Source: Diphasiastrum complanatum (lineage: Eukaryota; Streptophyta; Lycopodiopsida; Lycopodiales; Lycopodiaceae). Taken from it: DNA of 64,000 bases. Below, piece by piece: positions 2,836 through 39,665 of the stretch. Within the stretch, counting starts at the first letter, position 1. Each line of letters begins with the position of its first letter. A program made the position numbers and the translations under genes. The notes below the pieces were generated by a model. That model had not been told where the DNA came from. It did no database searches and saw only the letters and a program-made list of their open reading frames with translations. The DNA lies in contig CM055113.1 of the NCBI GenBank assembly GCA_029204225.1, positions 14,134,406-14,198,405 of the forward strand, in the 5' to 3' direction.

Positions 2836-5800
2836 ATACATACTGCATTTGACAATTCGACACATGACTCTTGTCTTATTGTTTATGATATTTATGTTGT
2901 TTCAATATGAGTTCTAATAATGTATATGAAACAATCTTTTTCTATCATTCATTTTCTACACTTGTGAATGATAATAAGTTGTGTTTATGATAGTAACAAA
3001 ATAGTTTTGTTATTACATCAACTATTATTCTTCCTACATTCGAACTATAGTTATTCGACTCATATGCAACTTATTTCCAATTTTCAATACTTAACTCTTC
3101 CCTATGGTCATAGCACCTCACAACACATCATTTAATGTGGTATATATTAAAATTATTGCCAAGTCAATCTTTTGATTGAAATGGGTATTTTTGCACTTTA
3201 TGCTTGTAGGGTTTTTGTTCAAATTTTGATTGGATCTTTATATCATTATACAATCGTTATGATCTAATTATATAATGACAATTTATTTCAGCCTTCTAAA
3301 AGTTGATCTATTGCATAATCAAACAAAGCATATATCATTTTTGGCTCTTCATTACTCTATTAGAGTTTTGATTTTTATACCTCTTGTTGTGATACGAGTC
3401 TATAGCACTTGACAACTTATCAATTGAATATATCCTAGACCTCAATGGAGTTATCCTCAAATTATTGAAAAATCAAGTTCTTCGTCAAAAGAGGGTAAAT
3501 TGTAGCTTGTCCTACTACAACAACATGATCTCTAAGATTAGTTCCACACAAACAAACAAAAAATTAATACTAATACATAATAAAATAAAAAATCGAACCC
3601 CATTCTTGAAGTGAAAATCAGCATTAGATAGTTGTTAGGGCTTGGAAGGTTGATCACCAAGCGAGCTACTACAATTATTAGGCTTATCCTTGGTTCTTGT
3701 ATTTCATCTTCCCTCCATTGCTCCTAATACTAATATTAGAGTTTCCATCGTTGGTACATCTCTACATTTAAAAGTGTTGATGAGCAATTTGCACATACTG
3801 TAGCTTGTTCAAGAAAAACAAAGCCTTGAAGGCGCTCGAGCATCAAAGAAGTGTGATTGGTTACAATAATGTGCATAGATGAAACAGAGGCTTGCCAATA
3901 ATAGAGAAGGTCTAGAGATTGTAGAGTGGCTTCAATGTGTGGCTTATTACCACTAATAAGGCACAAAATTGATGGGTACAAACTATTGTGAAGAAATTCC
4001 AATTGAGATATAGTCATAGAAGATAAATATAAGATATGGGCAACAGTTTTTTGATGCATATGAAGTACAAGATGAAAGTTTCACATAATACATCTTGGTC
4101 CAAATGGGATATAAGATGTGATAGATGAGGCACTGAATCAATGCGAACTAGGTCCATGCATATCTAGAGCAATCAAAGCTTGTTGTAAATAAGCCACAAA
4201 CTCAAATCAACATTTTGAGGCACCTACAACTCAAGCAGAGGCACAACTTAATAATTCGAATACATTCCATAGTTTCAGTAGGATTACTTCAGGTTCTTTG
4301 TTGGTAGTGACAATTTTAAACAAAGTGTTCCTTTTACTAATGATCTTGGGTGTTATAAATCATTTTCCAATCTTCTCAAAGATTCTACTTCTATAATGGG
4401 TTATCACCCTATTCTTCAAAGCTATATTCCGCTCCGCCTTTATATGTGGAGCCATTTCCAAAATTCAGGGTACTTTCTTCCCAATTTCTTTGTGCGCTAG
4501 TGGCTTGTACGGTATAGGAATATTTGGAGTCCACCATTCCGATCAATACATGATATCCATGGTCCATATAGTCAGCTTGTATCTATATATATTCAAAGTC
4601 ATATCTTCTTGTAATTATCTAGTACTCTTGGTCTATAAGTTTGGCTCAAAGTTTCTTAGGCAACATTGTGCCATCTACTCCGATGTTTACATGGTATCCA
4701 TAGTCTATCAATTTGGCATAGTATTTTATCGTATGCACTGGGGTTCTTTGTGCATGCTTTGGTTCTCTTATTGATTTTTACATTTTTATGTGGCATCTTT
4801 GTTCCATCCGATTTGCATTGTATACCAATGTGTGCAACAAAGTTCTCACTAGCAGATAAAGTAATTACATTTGTGTATTGGGTCTTCTTCAATATATCAA
4901 TTTGTGACGATATTATCTGAAGTATATGCAATAGATTCTACTTTTCCACGTTGCTACATTCTTTTATACTCAAACTATGGACTATCTTTTTAACGAGGGA
5001 AGAAACCTGTAGGTCATTCGTGGGTAGTACATCGATCCATGACACACAACATTATTTGTGAGTAGACCATGTGGTTTGGCCTATCAGCCCCTCTAGCATC
5101 AGGATAAGATACATAGGTATGACGCCTCATCACATTAGTTAGATGAATGATTGGGAAGCTTAATCTTAGTCAATCGATACTCATAGAAGAATAACATTCA
5201 CCTTAGATGGCCCTTATTTTCCATTAAATTCAGCCATACATTTGCAATTTTCTCCTTGATTTCTTTACATTATGCGATTATGATTTAAGCCATATGAAAG
5301 TGGGGTTTTTTTAGTGGGATGTTCCTCCTATGAAGGCAAGGAAAGGAAAAAGAGGAGGCAGCAGCATAGAAGACAATCCAGAATAAGGAATCTGAAGAGA
5401 CTGCTCATCCTAGTGAGGATAGCGAACTTCTGTTCTTTTTGTGTTTGCCATGAGTATAGCTTATTCATTGTTACTGCCATGTCTACTTCAAGAACATTTT
5501 CTACTGGATGATATTGGTCACTATTTGTTGGATGGCGAACATTTTCTACGATGAAAGCAGAGTTGGCACATTCCGGAGCCGATTCCGGAAAACATTCCAA
5601 GAATTTGCCCAAAATGCTGGTCAGGAATGCCTTTTTCTTTTGCAATACAGTAGTCAAATTGCAAAAAAATTAGGGGGGGACCTGATGGTAGTGTTTGAAA
5701 TTTTAAAACACTACAGGGGCCCTATTTTTGTCAGATAATATTGTTCTGATTGTTTTAATAGTTGAAAAAAAATTAACTTAGATTTTCTTTGGTTTTTATA

Positions 5801-7994: not shown

Positions 7995-8415
7995 GTCCTC
8001 AGGAATGTTATGCCCATGTCAGTCCAAAAGCAGCCAAGAACCCTCTCATAGGGTGCCATCACTACAAGAACTGCATCAGTTGAGAAGCCAAGGTCACGTA
8101 ATCTTTGGATGAGAATGAAATGTGGGACAGAATCAAAGGCTTTCTTGAAGTCAACAAAAAACAATAAACCCTCTTATCGCTTGTGTGTAGCTTCCTCGAT
8201 GATAGCTCGAAGAGTGAAGACATGGTCAGTGGTGGAATAGTGAGCTCCAAGACCAGCCTGTCCCAAGGCATGTAGTTGCTTGATCTCAGCTTCAGAACTG
8301 ACAGCTGACTGAAGGATAGTGCCATATAGTTTCACAATAACATGGCCGATCATGATAGCATGGTAGTTACCGAGATTCATGGGGTCACCATTTTTGTGGA
8401 TGGGGTGGATGATAT
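7995..8415 (-). pseudogene. LINE (L1-type) reverse transcriptase fragment
   Basis: Read on the minus strand, three broken frames carry consecutive non-LTR RT motifs. First is HKNGDPMNLGNYHAIMIGH, the NYR-like block before the fingers. Then come GQAGLGAHYSTTDHVFTLR with IIEE, and FFVDFKKAFDSV, the catalytic block A with its Asp. A stop separates the second and third. The polymerase YxDD block and everything downstream are missing, as is the endonuclease expected upstream. It lies on the same strand as, and just after, the ORF1 remnant at 8729-9945, so both probably come from one LINE that lost about a kilobase between them. Confidence 0.8.
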
Positions 8416-35617: not shown

Positions 35618-36715
35618 TGTTGGATTATTCTGTTTCCTACTAAATGACTAATCGGTTTTTAATCTTCATCCAATTGTTTATCTAGTTCTGCGGATTTCCC
35701 CGTATCTTTATACATTCTGTAGAATTACAAGTGTTTTTACACAGTCTACAGAAATACACGGAGTTGACAATAGTGTCACATTTTCTCTCTCTACAAACTC
35801 GATAGTGTCGCCTGTCAGAAATTGCGTGTAAAAATGCAGTGTCACCCTTTTCGCATTTTTCGCTTGTCAAGAATTACATGTAAAAAATGCAATGTCATCT
35901 TTTTTGCATTTTTCGCCTATCAGGAATTACGTGCAAAAATGCAGTGTCGCCTTTTTCGCATTTTTCGCCTGTCAGGAATTACGTGCAAAAATGCAATGTC
36001 GACTTTTTTGCATTTTTCGCCTGTCAGAAAACATGAGTAAAAATGCAATGTCGCATTTTTCGCCTGTGGCAGTTTACGTTCATTTCTGTAGAATGACAGT
36101 TTACGTCCATTAAAGCAGACAGACTGTTTATGGCCAATTGTCACCGCTTATCAACAAGCAACTTCTGAGAAGAACTGGATGAATGCCAGCGGACCCCAGC
36201 CAACTGGCAATCGCATTACTTAGTATAAATCGGTTGTTCATACATCTCATTATCAACGTTATTGTGAATTGTGAAGGAGTTGAGTGTTATTACACGGCGC
36301 TTCATGCACTCTCATCAAGCAGATCGTTCACAATCAGAAAGTATTGTTGCTAGCTCTCTATCAAGCTTTCAAGCTTGAACTCCCTTGAGCATTCTAGCTC
36401 CATCTTTTAGGAATTTATTTTAGAGTTGCTATTGCGCTACTGCTTATCAGCAGAGTGGCTTATTTCAGACTTATTATCATTTACTCAGAGACAAATTTAG
36501 AGTGCACAGTCTCTATCCGCTATTTTCTTGCACTCATTAGCATCTGCTCTTGTTTTTCTGAATCAATACTATTTTCTTATTGCGTTCAGTTTGTATCAGA
36601 ATGCATGCATCTTTGTATTTCTTTCGTAACTGGTAGAAATTGTCTGAGAATTCAATATAGCCACGTCCTAAAGTACTTCTGCTGGTGTCACGATATCTGA
36701 TCAAATATTTGTACC
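35618..36715 (+). mobile_element. 5' LTR of the deleted copia element
   Basis: The segment shared with the 3' LTR covers 35618 to about 36410; beyond that the 5' copy continues alone. The right edge is approximate: TGGTACTTGG at 36719 is only a poor match to a Met-tRNA primer site. It contains the 52-bp tandem array at 35840-36070 and a palindrome-like CAAGCTTTCAAGCTTG near 36362. Confidence 0.65.
35840..36070 (+). repeat. 52-bp tandem repeat array inside the copia LTR
   Basis: Units start TGTC at 35840, 35893, 35945, 35997 and 36049, a period of 52-53 bp. Each contains GCATTTTTCGCC, then TGTCAGGAATTACGTGC and AAAAATGCA. The same array, more diverged, occurs in the 3' LTR. Cysteine/phenylalanine-rich frames here are translations of the repeat, not proteins. 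Confidence 0.9.
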
Positions 36716-37215
36716 TCATGGTACTTGGTTGATCTTCTTGGTCCTTTGTGGAGCACGAATGATTTTGTGTCGCGAAACAATTTCATGTCGTGTGTCGCAA
36801 AATTGTTCACGAACATTTTTGCTTCGTGTGTCTTCTATGTCAAAATCAAGGTGGAAAGCTAGCAAAGCTTTGGCAATTGAAACATTTTATTTCTTTAGTG
36901 TCTTGAAATGGCAAAGTGGTGCCATAGCCCACGCTCGAAGAAATCCCATAAGTAGAAGTGGGACTTTGTTCAAAGTGGATATAAGTGGTAAATGTCTAAG
37001 TGTTTAATGTCATCTGGTACCAGCCCCTTTGTGGGCAAGGGGAAGGGCGGCTAGGCGTCCGAGGACGGGATCCCAGAATGCGGCTCACAGAAGGGGCAAA
37101 AGGCTCCATGATTTTGGTGCAACCTCTGAAGCAGAAAGGTTAAGTTGCATCATGGTGCAACCTCTAAACCAAAAAGATTAAGTTGTATCCGTTGAAGGCC
37201 CACCGAATTCCAACA

Positions 37216-37262
37216 TGGTATCAGAGCAGGCGACGTGACCTGTGCCCCACTTTGAGGGGGAG
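37216..37262 (+). promoter_or_regulatory. Complete 47-bp internal region 1: PBS plus polypurine tract
   Basis: TGGTATCAGAGC (37216-37227) is a perfect 12-base initiator-Met tRNA primer-binding site. CTTTGAGGGGGAG (37250-37262) is the polypurine tract. Only 22 bases separate them. Confidence 0.9.
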
Positions 37263-37591
37263 TGTTGGAATGGCAAAGTGGTGCCACAGCCCATGCTCAA
37301 AGAAATCCCATAAGTAGAAGTGGGACTTTGTTCAAAGTGGATATAAGTGGTAAATGTCTAAGTGTTTAATGTCCCCTGGTACCAGCCCCTTTGCGGGCAA
37401 GGGGGAGCACTTGGATTCATGGGCGGCTAGGCGTCCGGGGACGGGATCCCGGAACGGGGCTCAAGGAAGGGGCAAAAGACTCCATGATTTTGGTGCAACC
37501 TCTTAACCAAAAAGGTTAAGTTGCATCACAGTGCAACCTCTAAACCAGAAATGTTAAGTTGTATCTGTTGAAGGCCCACCGAATTCCAACA

Positions 37592-37638
37592 TGGTATTAG
37601 AGTAGGCAACGTGACCTGTGCCCCACTTTGAGGGGGAG
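37592..37638 (+). promoter_or_regulatory. Complete 47-bp internal region 2: mutated PBS plus polypurine tract
   Basis: It has the same length and layout as region 1. The primer site reads TGGTATTAGAGT, two C-to-T changes from canonical, one of them in a CAG (CHG) context. The polypurine tract (37626-37638) is unchanged. Confidence 0.85.
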
Positions 37639-37968
37639 TGTTGGAATGGCAAAGTGGTGCCACAGCCCACACTCAAAGAAATCTCATAAGTAGACGTGGG
37701 ACTTTGTTCAAAGTGGATATAAGTGGTAAATGTCTAAGTGTTTAATGCCCCCTAGTACCAACCCCTTTGCGGGCAAGGGGGAGCACTTGGATTCGTGGGC
37801 GGCTAGGTGTTCGAGGACGAGATCCCAGAATGCGGCTCGCGGAAGGGGCAAAAGGCTCCATGATTTTGGTGCCACCTTTGAACCAGAAAGGTTAAGTTGC
37901 ATCATGGTGCAACCTTTGAACCAGAAAGGCTAAGTTGTATCCATTGAAGGCCCACCGAATTCCAACAG

Positions 37969-38424
37969 GATGGTAAAGCTTTCGCGCTTATTATCCTCAA
38001 TTTATCAAATACTCAAATTGGCCCCATAGCTGAAGCTAAAACTTCGAAAGAAGTTTGGGACATCCTGAGCTCACTATATGATGTGAGAGACGTAACTACC
38101 AAGTTACAGATAAAAAAGAAAATTTTCGCACTCATCAAGATGTCCAATGGTGATTCTCTTCATAATCATATTAACCAGTTTAAGAATCTCTTGCAACAGA
38201 TGGCCGCTATCATTTCAGTCATAGACGATCAAGACGCAATAATGACATTGCTTTCAAGCATGTCCTCTACATATGAGAACTGGGTGATAATCATCACAAC
38301 ACACTCAATTTTAACTCTTATCAAAGTTATCACTATGTTGCTGCAAGAAGATACTCGAAAAAGTCAAGACACTTCGTCTACCTCTTCATCTCATGCTCTA
38401 TATATCAACAAGGGCTCAAAATGA
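37969..38424 (+). pseudogene. Copia gag segment (UBN2-type)
   Basis: The open frame starts DGKAFALIILNLSNTQIGPI just after the miniature element and continues EVWDILSSLYD and FKNLLQQMAAII with MSSTYENWV. This is the conserved middle of Ty1/copia Gag. It stops at 38424. A zinc-knuckle is not visible. A similar but diverged phrase (RWKASKALAIETF) lies left of the miniature element. Confidence 0.85.
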
Positions 38425-38639
38425 CAGAAAAAAAAAGCTCCAAGCAGTCTGCATCGAATCAAAAACAGACTCAAAGTCAAGGACAATCATCAAATCCACA
38501 TTCATCAAAGAAGAAGATGTTTAGCAACATATGACCAATCATCGTGAGATTTTCCAATCCTATACGCCTTACACCACAAAGAAGTATGTTCATCTTGGTG
38601 ACGATAATACTCACACTATCAAAGGTGAAGGTACTGTTC
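38425..38639 (+). pseudogene. Copia protease N-terminal scrap
   Basis: After Ser/Gln-rich linker codons one frame reads MTNHREIFQSYTPYTTKKYV followed by HLGDDNTHTIKGEGTV, typical of the copia protease region after the catalytic DTGA, which itself is not seen. It ends abruptly at the deletion junction at about 38640. Confidence 0.65.
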
Positions 38640-38853
38640 AACCAACCCTAGATTTCATTCTAGGAGTAACCACATTGAACTGAAGTATCACTTTGTTAGA
38701 AGCAAAGTTCTCAACGAAGAGGTCAGATTGCAGTACTGTCGAACGCAAGATATGACAGCAGATATTTTTACCAAAGCATTAAGCTTGGATGCACACAGAA
38801 GGTTTTGTGTAGAACTAAGTTTAAAGGTCAAGGCATTCATGGATTCAGATTAG
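38640..38853 (+). pseudogene. Copia RNase H C-terminal end
   Basis: The frame reads NPRFHSRSNHIELKYHFVR, then QDMTADIFTKALSLDAHRR, and stops at TAG 38851-38853, four bases before the 3' LTR. This is the standard end of copia Pol. It is fused directly to the protease scrap, so integrase and RT were lost in one internal deletion. Confidence 0.85.
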
Positions 38854-38856
38854 GAG

Positions 38857-39665
38857 TGTTGGATTATTCTCTTTCCTACTAATCGACTAATCAATTTTTA
38901 ATCTTTATCCAACTGTTTATCCAGTTCTATGGATTTTTCCGTGCCTTTATGCAGTCTGCAGAATTACAAGTGTTTTTACATAGTCTGCAAAAATACATGG
39001 AGTTTGACAACAGTGTTGCATATTCTCTCTCTACAAACCCAGCAATGTTGTCTGTCAGGAACTGCATGTAAAAAAGCAATGTTGTCTTTTTTGCATTTTT
39101 TGTCTATCAAGAATTACATGTAAAAAATGCACTGTTGTCTTTTTTGCATTTTTCGTCTGTCAGGAATTACGTGCAAAAATGTAGCGTCGCCTTTTTTTGC
39201 ATTTTTCGCTTGTCAAGAATTACATGCAAAAAGGCAGTGTTGTCTTTTTCGCATTTTTCACCTATCAGAAATCACAAGGAAAAATGAAGTGTCACATTTT
39301 TCGCCTATGGCAATTTACATTCATTTATGCAGAATGACAGTTTACGTTCATTTATGCAGACAGGCTGTTTACGGCCAATTGTCACCGCTTAACAGCAAAC
39401 AACTTCTGAGAAGAACTAGATGAATGCCAACGGACTCCAGCCAACTGGCAATCACATTTGACGACCTAATTACTTATTATAAATCAGTTGTTCATACATC
39501 TCATTATCAACGTTATTGTGAATTGTGAAGGAGTTGAGTGCTATTACAGGACGCTTCTTGTGCTCTCATCAAGCAAATCGTTCACAATCAGAAAGTATTG
39601 TTGTTAGCTCTCTATCAAGCTTTCAAGCTTGAACTCTCTGGAGTACTCTAGCTCAGTCTTTTAGA
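38857..39665 (+). mobile_element. 3' LTR of the deleted copia element (truncated)
   Basis: It is collinear with 35618-36410, including the TATA-less front part, the 52-bp repeat array (39047-39310) and the CAAGCTTTCAAGCTTGAACT segment. Similarity ends at CTTTTAGA (39665), so the right part of the LTR is missing. Confidence 0.8.

Follow-up and report, generated by a model that had tools for sequence, protein, structure and literature searches.

A three-LTR TRIM retrotransposon with 47-bp internal regions in Diphasiastrum complanatum, and TRIM LTRs joined to copia interiors at the primer binding site

The window analyzed here is a stretch of 64,000 nucleotides of Diphasiastrum complanatum DNA (contig CM055113.1, positions 14,134,406 to 14,198,405 of the forward strand). 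At 36899-37967 it holds an array in which three LTRs of 317, 329 and 329 bp alternate with two 47-bp spacers; these boundaries had been proposed in an earlier, sequence-only reading and were reproduced by alignment. The array and its flanks comprise the following features, in window coordinates.

36658 to 36898, minus strand: left flank, resembling sequence near the 3' end of a copia element, reversed; it is not the start of the gag found on the right.
36899 to 37215, plus strand: LTR1, 317 bp by alignment, 92.1% identical to LTR2 and 91.1% to LTR3.
37115 to 37189, plus strand: two 38-bp tandem units near the 3' end of LTR1.
37216 to 37262, plus strand: internal region 1 (spacer 1), 47 bp by alignment.
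37216 to 37227, plus strand: primer binding site (PBS) TGGTATCAGAGC, 12 letters by alignment, abutting LTR1.
37254 to 37262, plus strand: polypurine tract (PPT) GAGGGGGAG, by alignment, abutting LTR2.
37263 to 37591, plus strand: LTR2, 329 bp, TGTTGG...CCAACA.
37493 to 37565, plus strand: two 38-bp tandem units in LTR2, as in LTR1.
37592 to 37638, plus strand: internal region 2 (spacer 2), 47 bp, with a PBS copy, TGGTATTAGAGT, that carries two changes.
37639 to 37967, plus strand: LTR3, 329 bp, TGTTGG...CCAACA.
37867 to 37941, plus strand: two 38-bp tandem units in LTR3, as in LTR1.
37968 to 38340, plus strand: right flank, copia gag-like, entered at about internal nucleotide 330 of copia family C, 72-73% identical to the family C loci L111 and L115.

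LTR1 is missing 14 bp internally, and its 5' start is ragged (TGTCTTGAAATGG versus TGTTGGAATGG). The three LTRs are 91-92% identical pairwise, with K2P distances of 0.085, 0.096 and 0.099; no date is given for this divergence (K2P 0.085-0.099), as a rate for the plant is lacking. The two spacers differ at 3 of 47 positions. Each has the PBS at its left LTR and closes with GAGGGGGAG at its right LTR, and the earlier statement that the spacer holds little beyond these two signals describes both well, with the correction that about 26 bases, and not about 22, lie between them. The PBS TGGTATCAGAGC is presumably complementary to initiator tRNA-Met. Direct LTRs with TG...CA ends, a PBS and PPT adjacent to them, a non-coding 47-bp interior and a two-LTR size below 1 kb, together with the dispersed copies and 5-bp duplications described below, are the traits by which the element was assigned to the TRIMs. 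The 12 letters of TGGTATCAGAGC are also those of the Cassandra PBS as given in PMC7215508. The 5S rRNA-like sequence that is a trait of Cassandra gave no match in the window LTR in an Rfam search up to E 5, the tRNA-like sequence that is a trait of Helenus was not found in that LTR, and for the window element as a whole Rfam returned nothing above chance.

The site of the array has a history of its own. The left flank (offset 992-1232 at the window locus) matches positions 8067-8301 of locus L067, and its part at offset 992-1108 also matches L067 at 4935-4823, while the gag to which the right flank is similar is supported by Pfam in both L111 and L115. With a reversed copia 3' end on the left and copia sequence in mid-gag on the right, the site has been rearranged, and its right joint looks eroded. 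No 5-bp target duplication was found at the array, the left five bases being TTTAG or TAGTG, by the end chosen, and the right five GGATG. Positions 35667-39167 are duplicated at C22:12998500-13002000, 1.17 Mb away on the same contig, with 99.26% identity over 3501 bases, and this duplication of the neighborhood within contig C22 is recent. Duplication, with 98.7-100% identity over the aligned lengths, was likewise found for nine other groups of TRIM loci.

In the 1.74 Gb of genome searched, with pattern matches counted at up to three mismatches, a 35-base core of the LTR occurs at 396 places, a word across the PPT/LTR junction at 210 and a word across the LTR/PBS junction at 134. Reversed control patterns occur at 0 places, which excludes chance as the source of the junction matches. 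Matches to the LTR/PBS word that stand without a TRIM LTR were rejected (L002, L006, L012, L013, L019, L020, L112 and L116-L119). A script annotated 74 TRIM loci, which became 62 distinct ones once duplicated neighborhoods were removed; the spacer and duplication counts omit L002, L006, L012, L013, L019, L020, L061-L067, L069-L072 and L091-L105. At the distinct loci the spacer (n = 63) measures 47 bp in 55 cases, 46 in four, 45 in two, 42 in one and 144 in one, counts that lean towards 47-bp copies in that some loci were picked for their likeness to the window and the 34-base pattern includes eight spacer bases. The lone 144-bp spacer is probably a false end, its second LTR not having been found there. 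In a spacer-independent sample, consisting of every fifth of 100 listed zero-mismatch LTR-core places and so leaning to little-mutated copies, a 45-47-bp spacer was counted by eye at 14 of 20; the remaining six (L082, L084, L085, L086, L088 and L089) have one readable LTR, being truncated or having an unreadable partner. Across 69 spacers that are 47 bp long, the most frequent base accounts for 83% or more at every position.

The standard copy is an LTR of about 329 or 291 bp, 47 bp and a second LTR, about 705 bp in the longer form. Perfect 5-bp target duplications flank 14 of the 33 distinct two-ended copies with a spacer, against 0.40 expected, and a duplication of four in five or better flanks 19 of the 33 (five at four of five), against 1.16 expected, the expectations being obtained by permuting right flanks. 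At least two spacers are present at 7 of the 62 distinct loci (the window array, L003, L009, L011, L016, L017 and L041), and the arrays at L003 and L009 lie within perfect duplications, AATAG and ATGAG. The family is a dispersed, non-autonomous LTR retrotransposon of the TRIM kind that produces 5-bp duplications on integration. Such a family, with duplications at its single-spacer copies, is what the sequence-only reading had anticipated, and of the two outcomes that it had set against itself, a much longer interior genome-wide and a merely local tandem duplication, neither was found: the 47-bp interior is the norm (55 of 63), and the copies are dispersed.

A 47-bp internal region thus suffices for dispersal. 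It had been argued that any packaging or dimerization signal must then lie in the LTR, a claim that finds no clear support at the 3' end, where structure does not clearly exceed that of shuffles. The last 110 nucleotides of 56 LTRs fold with a median z of -1.45 relative to shuffles, 20% of them falling below -2, and whole LTR2 and LTR3 of the window reach z of -2.1 and -2.7; the 3'-end fold was set aside as a candidate packaging structure. The LTRs fall mainly into length classes of 290-291 and 329-330 bp, plus a few of 360-369, which are taken to contain one, two or three of the 38-bp units towards the 3' end. Judged by length bins, 10 of 29 two-LTR copies have unequal numbers of units in their LTRs, and three more copies fall in a catch-all bin. 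The pairing of a one-unit with a two-unit LTR is odd for LTRs made identical at insertion, and slippage or mixed parentage are candidate causes at most.

The TRIM LTR was also found without its spacer. A search pattern made of the TRIM LTR end and PBS, without the TRIM spacer next to it, matched 26 places, of which 15 were examined; the TRIM LTR was present at ten, namely nine direct copia joints and L106, a complex case with a piece of copia LTR intervening, and absent at five. With L121, which came from the family B matches described below, ten distinct loci in all have the TRIM LTR fused at the LTR/PBS boundary to interiors of four copia families, whose letters are labels given by nucleotide likeness. 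The five bases that precede the TRIM LTR are AGGAT in L109, ATACA in L110, CTTAA in L111 and GAAAG in L113.

Family A joints: L067 and L110.
Family B joints: L107, L109, L113 and L121.
Family C joints: L108, L111 and L115.
Family D joint: L114.

The four copia interiors have no nucleotide similarity to each other, and the one TRIM LTR is common to all. Copia proteins were recognized by Pfam in L107, L109, L111 and L115, with L114 just under the curated cut-off; L108, L110, L113 and L121 were assigned to copia by nucleotide likeness alone. Long copia open frames are found in L107 and L111, and just the last 79 bases of the TRIM LTR remain in L114 and L121. The 3' end was read at two of the ten joints, being a copia LTR in L067 and a second TRIM LTR in L108.

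The one complete hybrid is locus L008 on C5 (extended as L067), which past its second LTR and PBS runs into copia sequence. Its layout is TRIM LTR, 47 bp, TRIM LTR, PBS, the leader, gag, integrase and reverse transcriptase of copia A, and copia A LTR, with Pfam matches to Retrotran_gag_2, gag_pre-integrs, rve, SH3_retrovirus and RVT_2 in pieces that occupy more than one frame. The bases GGAGG stand directly before the TRIM LTR and directly after the copia LTR, a five-of-five agreement with a chance of about 1 in 1000, on a reading that requires the copia LTR to end in ..CTTCA; in native copies a single G separates ..TCA from the PBS, and were this G part of the copia LTR the right-hand five would be GAGGA. 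The LTRs of copia A finish in ..TTCA or ..ATCA where the TRIM has CCTACA, and those of the native family A copies L069 and L070 are about 0.9-1.0 kb long. Two direct searches for more family A joints returned only L067 and, at two places, a joint of another miniature element described below; the search with the family A 5' end (4885 candidates, 40 scored) is a weak test of the native family A LTRs, as its query had nine LTR bases, and the direct LTR comparison reported below is the better one.

For family B, 36 of the 40 scored matches (3265 candidates) start within 10 bases of the boundary, and the remaining four run through it into the TRIM LTR, which makes three distinct loci when the L107 place and C20:7749573 are taken as one duplicated locus. 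In six ordinary family B copies (L122-L127) the sequence ahead of the PBS ends in ..GACA. The native LTRs of family A (L069, L070) and family B (L122-L127) gave no match to the TRIM LTR at E up to 1e-3. Upstream of the TRIM LTR in L109, L110, L113, L106 and L008 there was no match to these native copia A or B LTRs, the stretch tested being 176-266 bases for L109, L110 and L113, and 1269 for L109 when taken as L120. The 5' layout of L109, L110 and L113 is that of a TRIM LTR followed by copia interior. L107 is different in its order: a copia B LTR (67-76% identical to B copies), the 47-bp TRIM spacer, a TRIM LTR and the copia B interior.

Two loci have a further plan. L068 is bounded by a TRIM LTR on each side and by a perfect ATGAC duplication; its 2370-bp interior is composed of pieces of another copia, downstream of which lies the full 47-bp TRIM spacer, opening with a PBS-like sequence of its own. 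L108 follows the same plan, with about 180 bases of copia C leader and the whole 47-bp spacer downstream. Such a plan suggests copia sequence captured by a TRIM. Copia elements whose LTR starts with TGTTGGAAT after GAGGGGGAG or AAGGGGGAG were found at L095, L096 and L098; with ends of this kind in copia, the TRIM ends look copia-like, none of the three being a proven partner, and a frame in L095 is RNase H-like by eye and has no Pfam match. In L070, at about 5100-5550 when read in reverse, the end of a copia LTR borders directly on base 63 of a TRIM LTR that is itself reversed, probably through insertion of the copia into a TRIM.

A second miniature element was observed beside these. At L091:992-1135 (C15:30.21 Mb) there is a 144-bp LTR with an intact tRNA-Thr(GGT) cloverleaf, belonging to an element with a 116-bp internal region; a genome search gave 1189 candidates, of which 40 were scored, with 94 matches. 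It too forms arrays (L099, L100 and L101): L099 has seven LTRs in two groups, seven predicted tRNA-Thr and GTGCT on both sides, and L101 has four LTRs, two predicted tRNA-Thr and ACTAC on both sides. The element resembles Helenus, for which Selaginella is the sole plant in the species table of PMC10886601, as far as the available text goes. At L091:1-1300 (also C3889 and L072) its unit lies between a copia LTR and the copia family A interior, at the PBS, which makes it a second miniature family joined to copia at that site.

In the standard retrotransposon cycle, plus-strand strong-stop DNA consists of the LTR and a copy of the PBS, and it pairs with the minus strand at the PBS end of the latter. 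Our preferred reading, to which we give roughly three chances in four, is that the window array is a TRIM copy of the L3I2 form (three LTRs and two internal regions), that TRIM and copia RNAs share particles, and that strand transfer at the PBS makes the hybrids and some of the arrays, with crossover as a second route. The TRIM RNA would run from LTR to LTR and be primed by a tRNA at the PBS, the second strand would begin at the PPT, and a borrowed copia integrase would insert the product. Where TRIM and copia RNAs are copied within the same particles, a nascent strand ending in the PBS could anneal to the PBS end of another molecule, in an intermolecular second-strand transfer. The expected product is donor LTR, acceptor interior and acceptor LTR, donor and acceptor meeting at the LTR/PBS boundary; a copia as acceptor would give the hybrids, and a second TRIM as acceptor would give LTR-I-LTR-I-LTR arrays such as that of the window. 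The predicted order of donor LTR and acceptor interior matches the 5' layout of L109, L110 and L113, and that of L067 past its extra TRIM unit. Unequal crossover between LTRs after insertion would be the second route to arrays.

For that second route there is strong evidence, from the distribution of informative sites, at L003, where the middle LTR resembles LTR3 at the first five informative sites and LTR1 at the next eight and has no private change (chance 1/1287). One might then suppose that all arrays arise after integration, by unequal crossover between the LTRs of a two-LTR copy and with no role for reverse transcription, as the Wukong arrays of maize have been interpreted (PMC4528315). 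We regard this as unlikely, though the clean mosaic of L003 speaks for it. No mosaic pattern was found in arrays L009 and L017 or in the window array. The window LTRs have 12, 13 and 16 private changes, and the middle one switches its likeness between neighbors 13 times (0.47 of shuffles have as few); with switching at the level of chance and private changes in each, the window array is not the product of a recent crossover. Being about equally diverged and without a mosaic, its LTRs point to an array formed at or soon after insertion. The ending CCAACA is common to all three and argues for one source element: 7 of 125 LTRs have it, and six of these belong to the window array and its duplicate. 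The tree of 114 LTRs, tried as a test of this common origin, does not unite the three: it is star-like, with bootstrap not settled, LTR1 and LTR3 grouping with L089 (90/86) and LTR2 unplaced. A PBS-joined TRIM-copia hybrid with a target duplication, moreover, is not obtainable from crossover between unlike LTRs. Of the two origins that the sequence-only reading had offered for the array, template switching and unequal recombination, each thus finds support elsewhere, in the L067 hybrid and the L003 mosaic respectively, and the window copy favors neither.

It is less probable still that the hybrid joints as a whole arose within chromosomal DNA, through microhomology repair or through recombination of cDNA at a common PBS, although DNA-level recombination there could account for some of them, notably that of L107. 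The TRIM and copia PBS do have 12 identical bases in common, L107 and L091 have a miniature-element unit lodged between copia LTR and copia interior, and erosion is apparent at the window's right joint. Against this, the GGAGG of L067 lies outside both its TRIM LTR and its copia LTR, and ahead of the TRIM LTR in L109, L110 and L113 nothing matched a native copia A or B LTR within the 176-266 bases tested (1269 for L109).

A third explanation would make the TRIM an internal-deletion derivative of a copia that natively bore this LTR, the hybrids being surviving parents. Longer relatives were reported for 11 of 289 plant TRIM subfamilies and interpreted as parents (PMC4717578), the long copia frames of L107 and L111 would suit such a role, and the native copies compared here are those of A and B, so that the TRIM LTR on C or D could in principle be native. 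The native A and B LTRs are unrelated to the TRIM LTR, however, one LTR stands on four mutually dissimilar copia interiors, and L067 terminates in a copia LTR; we consider this explanation improbable. The 99.26% copy of the window array 1.17 Mb away on the same contig might suggest a satellite or local tandem duplication and no mobile element at all, a view refuted by 62 distinct loci with differing flanks, many of them with target duplications.

A wider and more tentative proposal, which we hold at somewhat below even odds, is that TRIMs of this kind spread partly as LTR swappers, their nascent plus strand, an LTR with a PBS copy, passing to the PBS end of any copia cDNA in the same particle, and arrays being the same event between TRIMs. 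One 329-bp LTR would then become the 5' LTR of many unrelated copia elements, and some reported autonomous parents of TRIMs with a duplicated PBS word would be capture hybrids and not ancestors. LTR swapping between autonomous and non-autonomous retrotransposons has reportedly been described in soybean, to go by the title of a 2010 paper by Du et al. According to the available text of PMC4717578, no relative encoding a retrotransposase turned up for 278 of 289 plant TRIM subfamilies. A PBS joint of TRIM LTR and copia interior inside one target duplication would be a sequence record of co-copying. A single short pattern suffices to look for such joints in any genome, which makes the question of the mobilizer testable with no need for an expression system.

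TRIMs in plants, arrays of the L3I2 form and very short interiors are already on record. The tandem TRIMs (TA-TRIM) of Gao et al. (2016, PMC4717578) are small, non-coding elements with 5-bp duplications, L3I2 denoting three LTRs and two internal regions; the window array has this plan in common with them, a likeness judged by description. In maize, L3I2 is the commonest tandem form (63 of 93 arrays; PMC4717578), so that the three-LTR element is less of a novelty than the sequence-only reading implied. Wukong of maize (PMC4528315) has a 72-bp internal region with PBS and PPT, compared with 47 bp here, and arrays of three to seven LTRs for which recombination was invoked, and it has a longer copia-like relative sharing its LTR. 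The SMART element FRetro129 of grasses (PMC3281118) is likewise an extremely small copia-type non-autonomous LTR element, of 292 bp with 85-bp LTRs and a 122-bp interior, versus about 705 bp, 329-bp LTRs and 47 bp here. The interior is similarly short in biv-TRIM of bivalves (77-80 bp; PMC6934838) and in Helenus-1_SMo of Selaginella (85 bp; PMC10886601), whose LTRs carry a tRNA whereas the window LTR does not. The contrast of 47 bp with the 72-122 bp of the compared elements is no claim to a record, the survey in PMC4717578 having accepted interiors as short as 30 bp.

As the origin of arrays, recombination and reverse transcription have each been put forward (PMC4717578, PMC4528315, PMC7215508, PMC11899658), and the words "template switch" occur 0 times in the available text of PMC4717578. 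The same paper describes in rice the pair OsajLTRA10/OsajRetroS10, a long copia that bears TRIM LTRs and has, at the breakpoint, a duplicated 25-bp word that ends in the PBS. OsajLTRA10 was interpreted there as the parent of the TRIM by deletion, whereas L068 and L108, also with a second PBS, suggest capture. Transfer at the PBS would offer a reverse-transcription route both to arrays and to the duplicated PBS word of the rice element. Three-LTR complexes within a single target duplication, for which reverse transcription or recombination was invoked, are described for Triticeae, where Sabot and Schulman proposed template switching at R regions between like elements (PMC1950507), and for tandem LTR-retrotransposons of rice (PMC11899658). 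Those cases, as far as the available text goes, involve like elements and a switch in the R region; here the joint is at the PBS, and a TRIM and copia elements with unlike LTRs are its partners. The LTR recombinants of the Onsen burst in Arabidopsis, mostly consistent with the first template switch (PMC5668417), differ from the present hybrids in the same respect, namely the PBS joint to unlike elements. Among the papers listed by literature searches, judged by titles and abstracts, no earlier report of a TRIM-copia joint at the PBS was recognized. What is new here is the TRIM LTR joined at the LTR/PBS boundary to interiors of four copia families.
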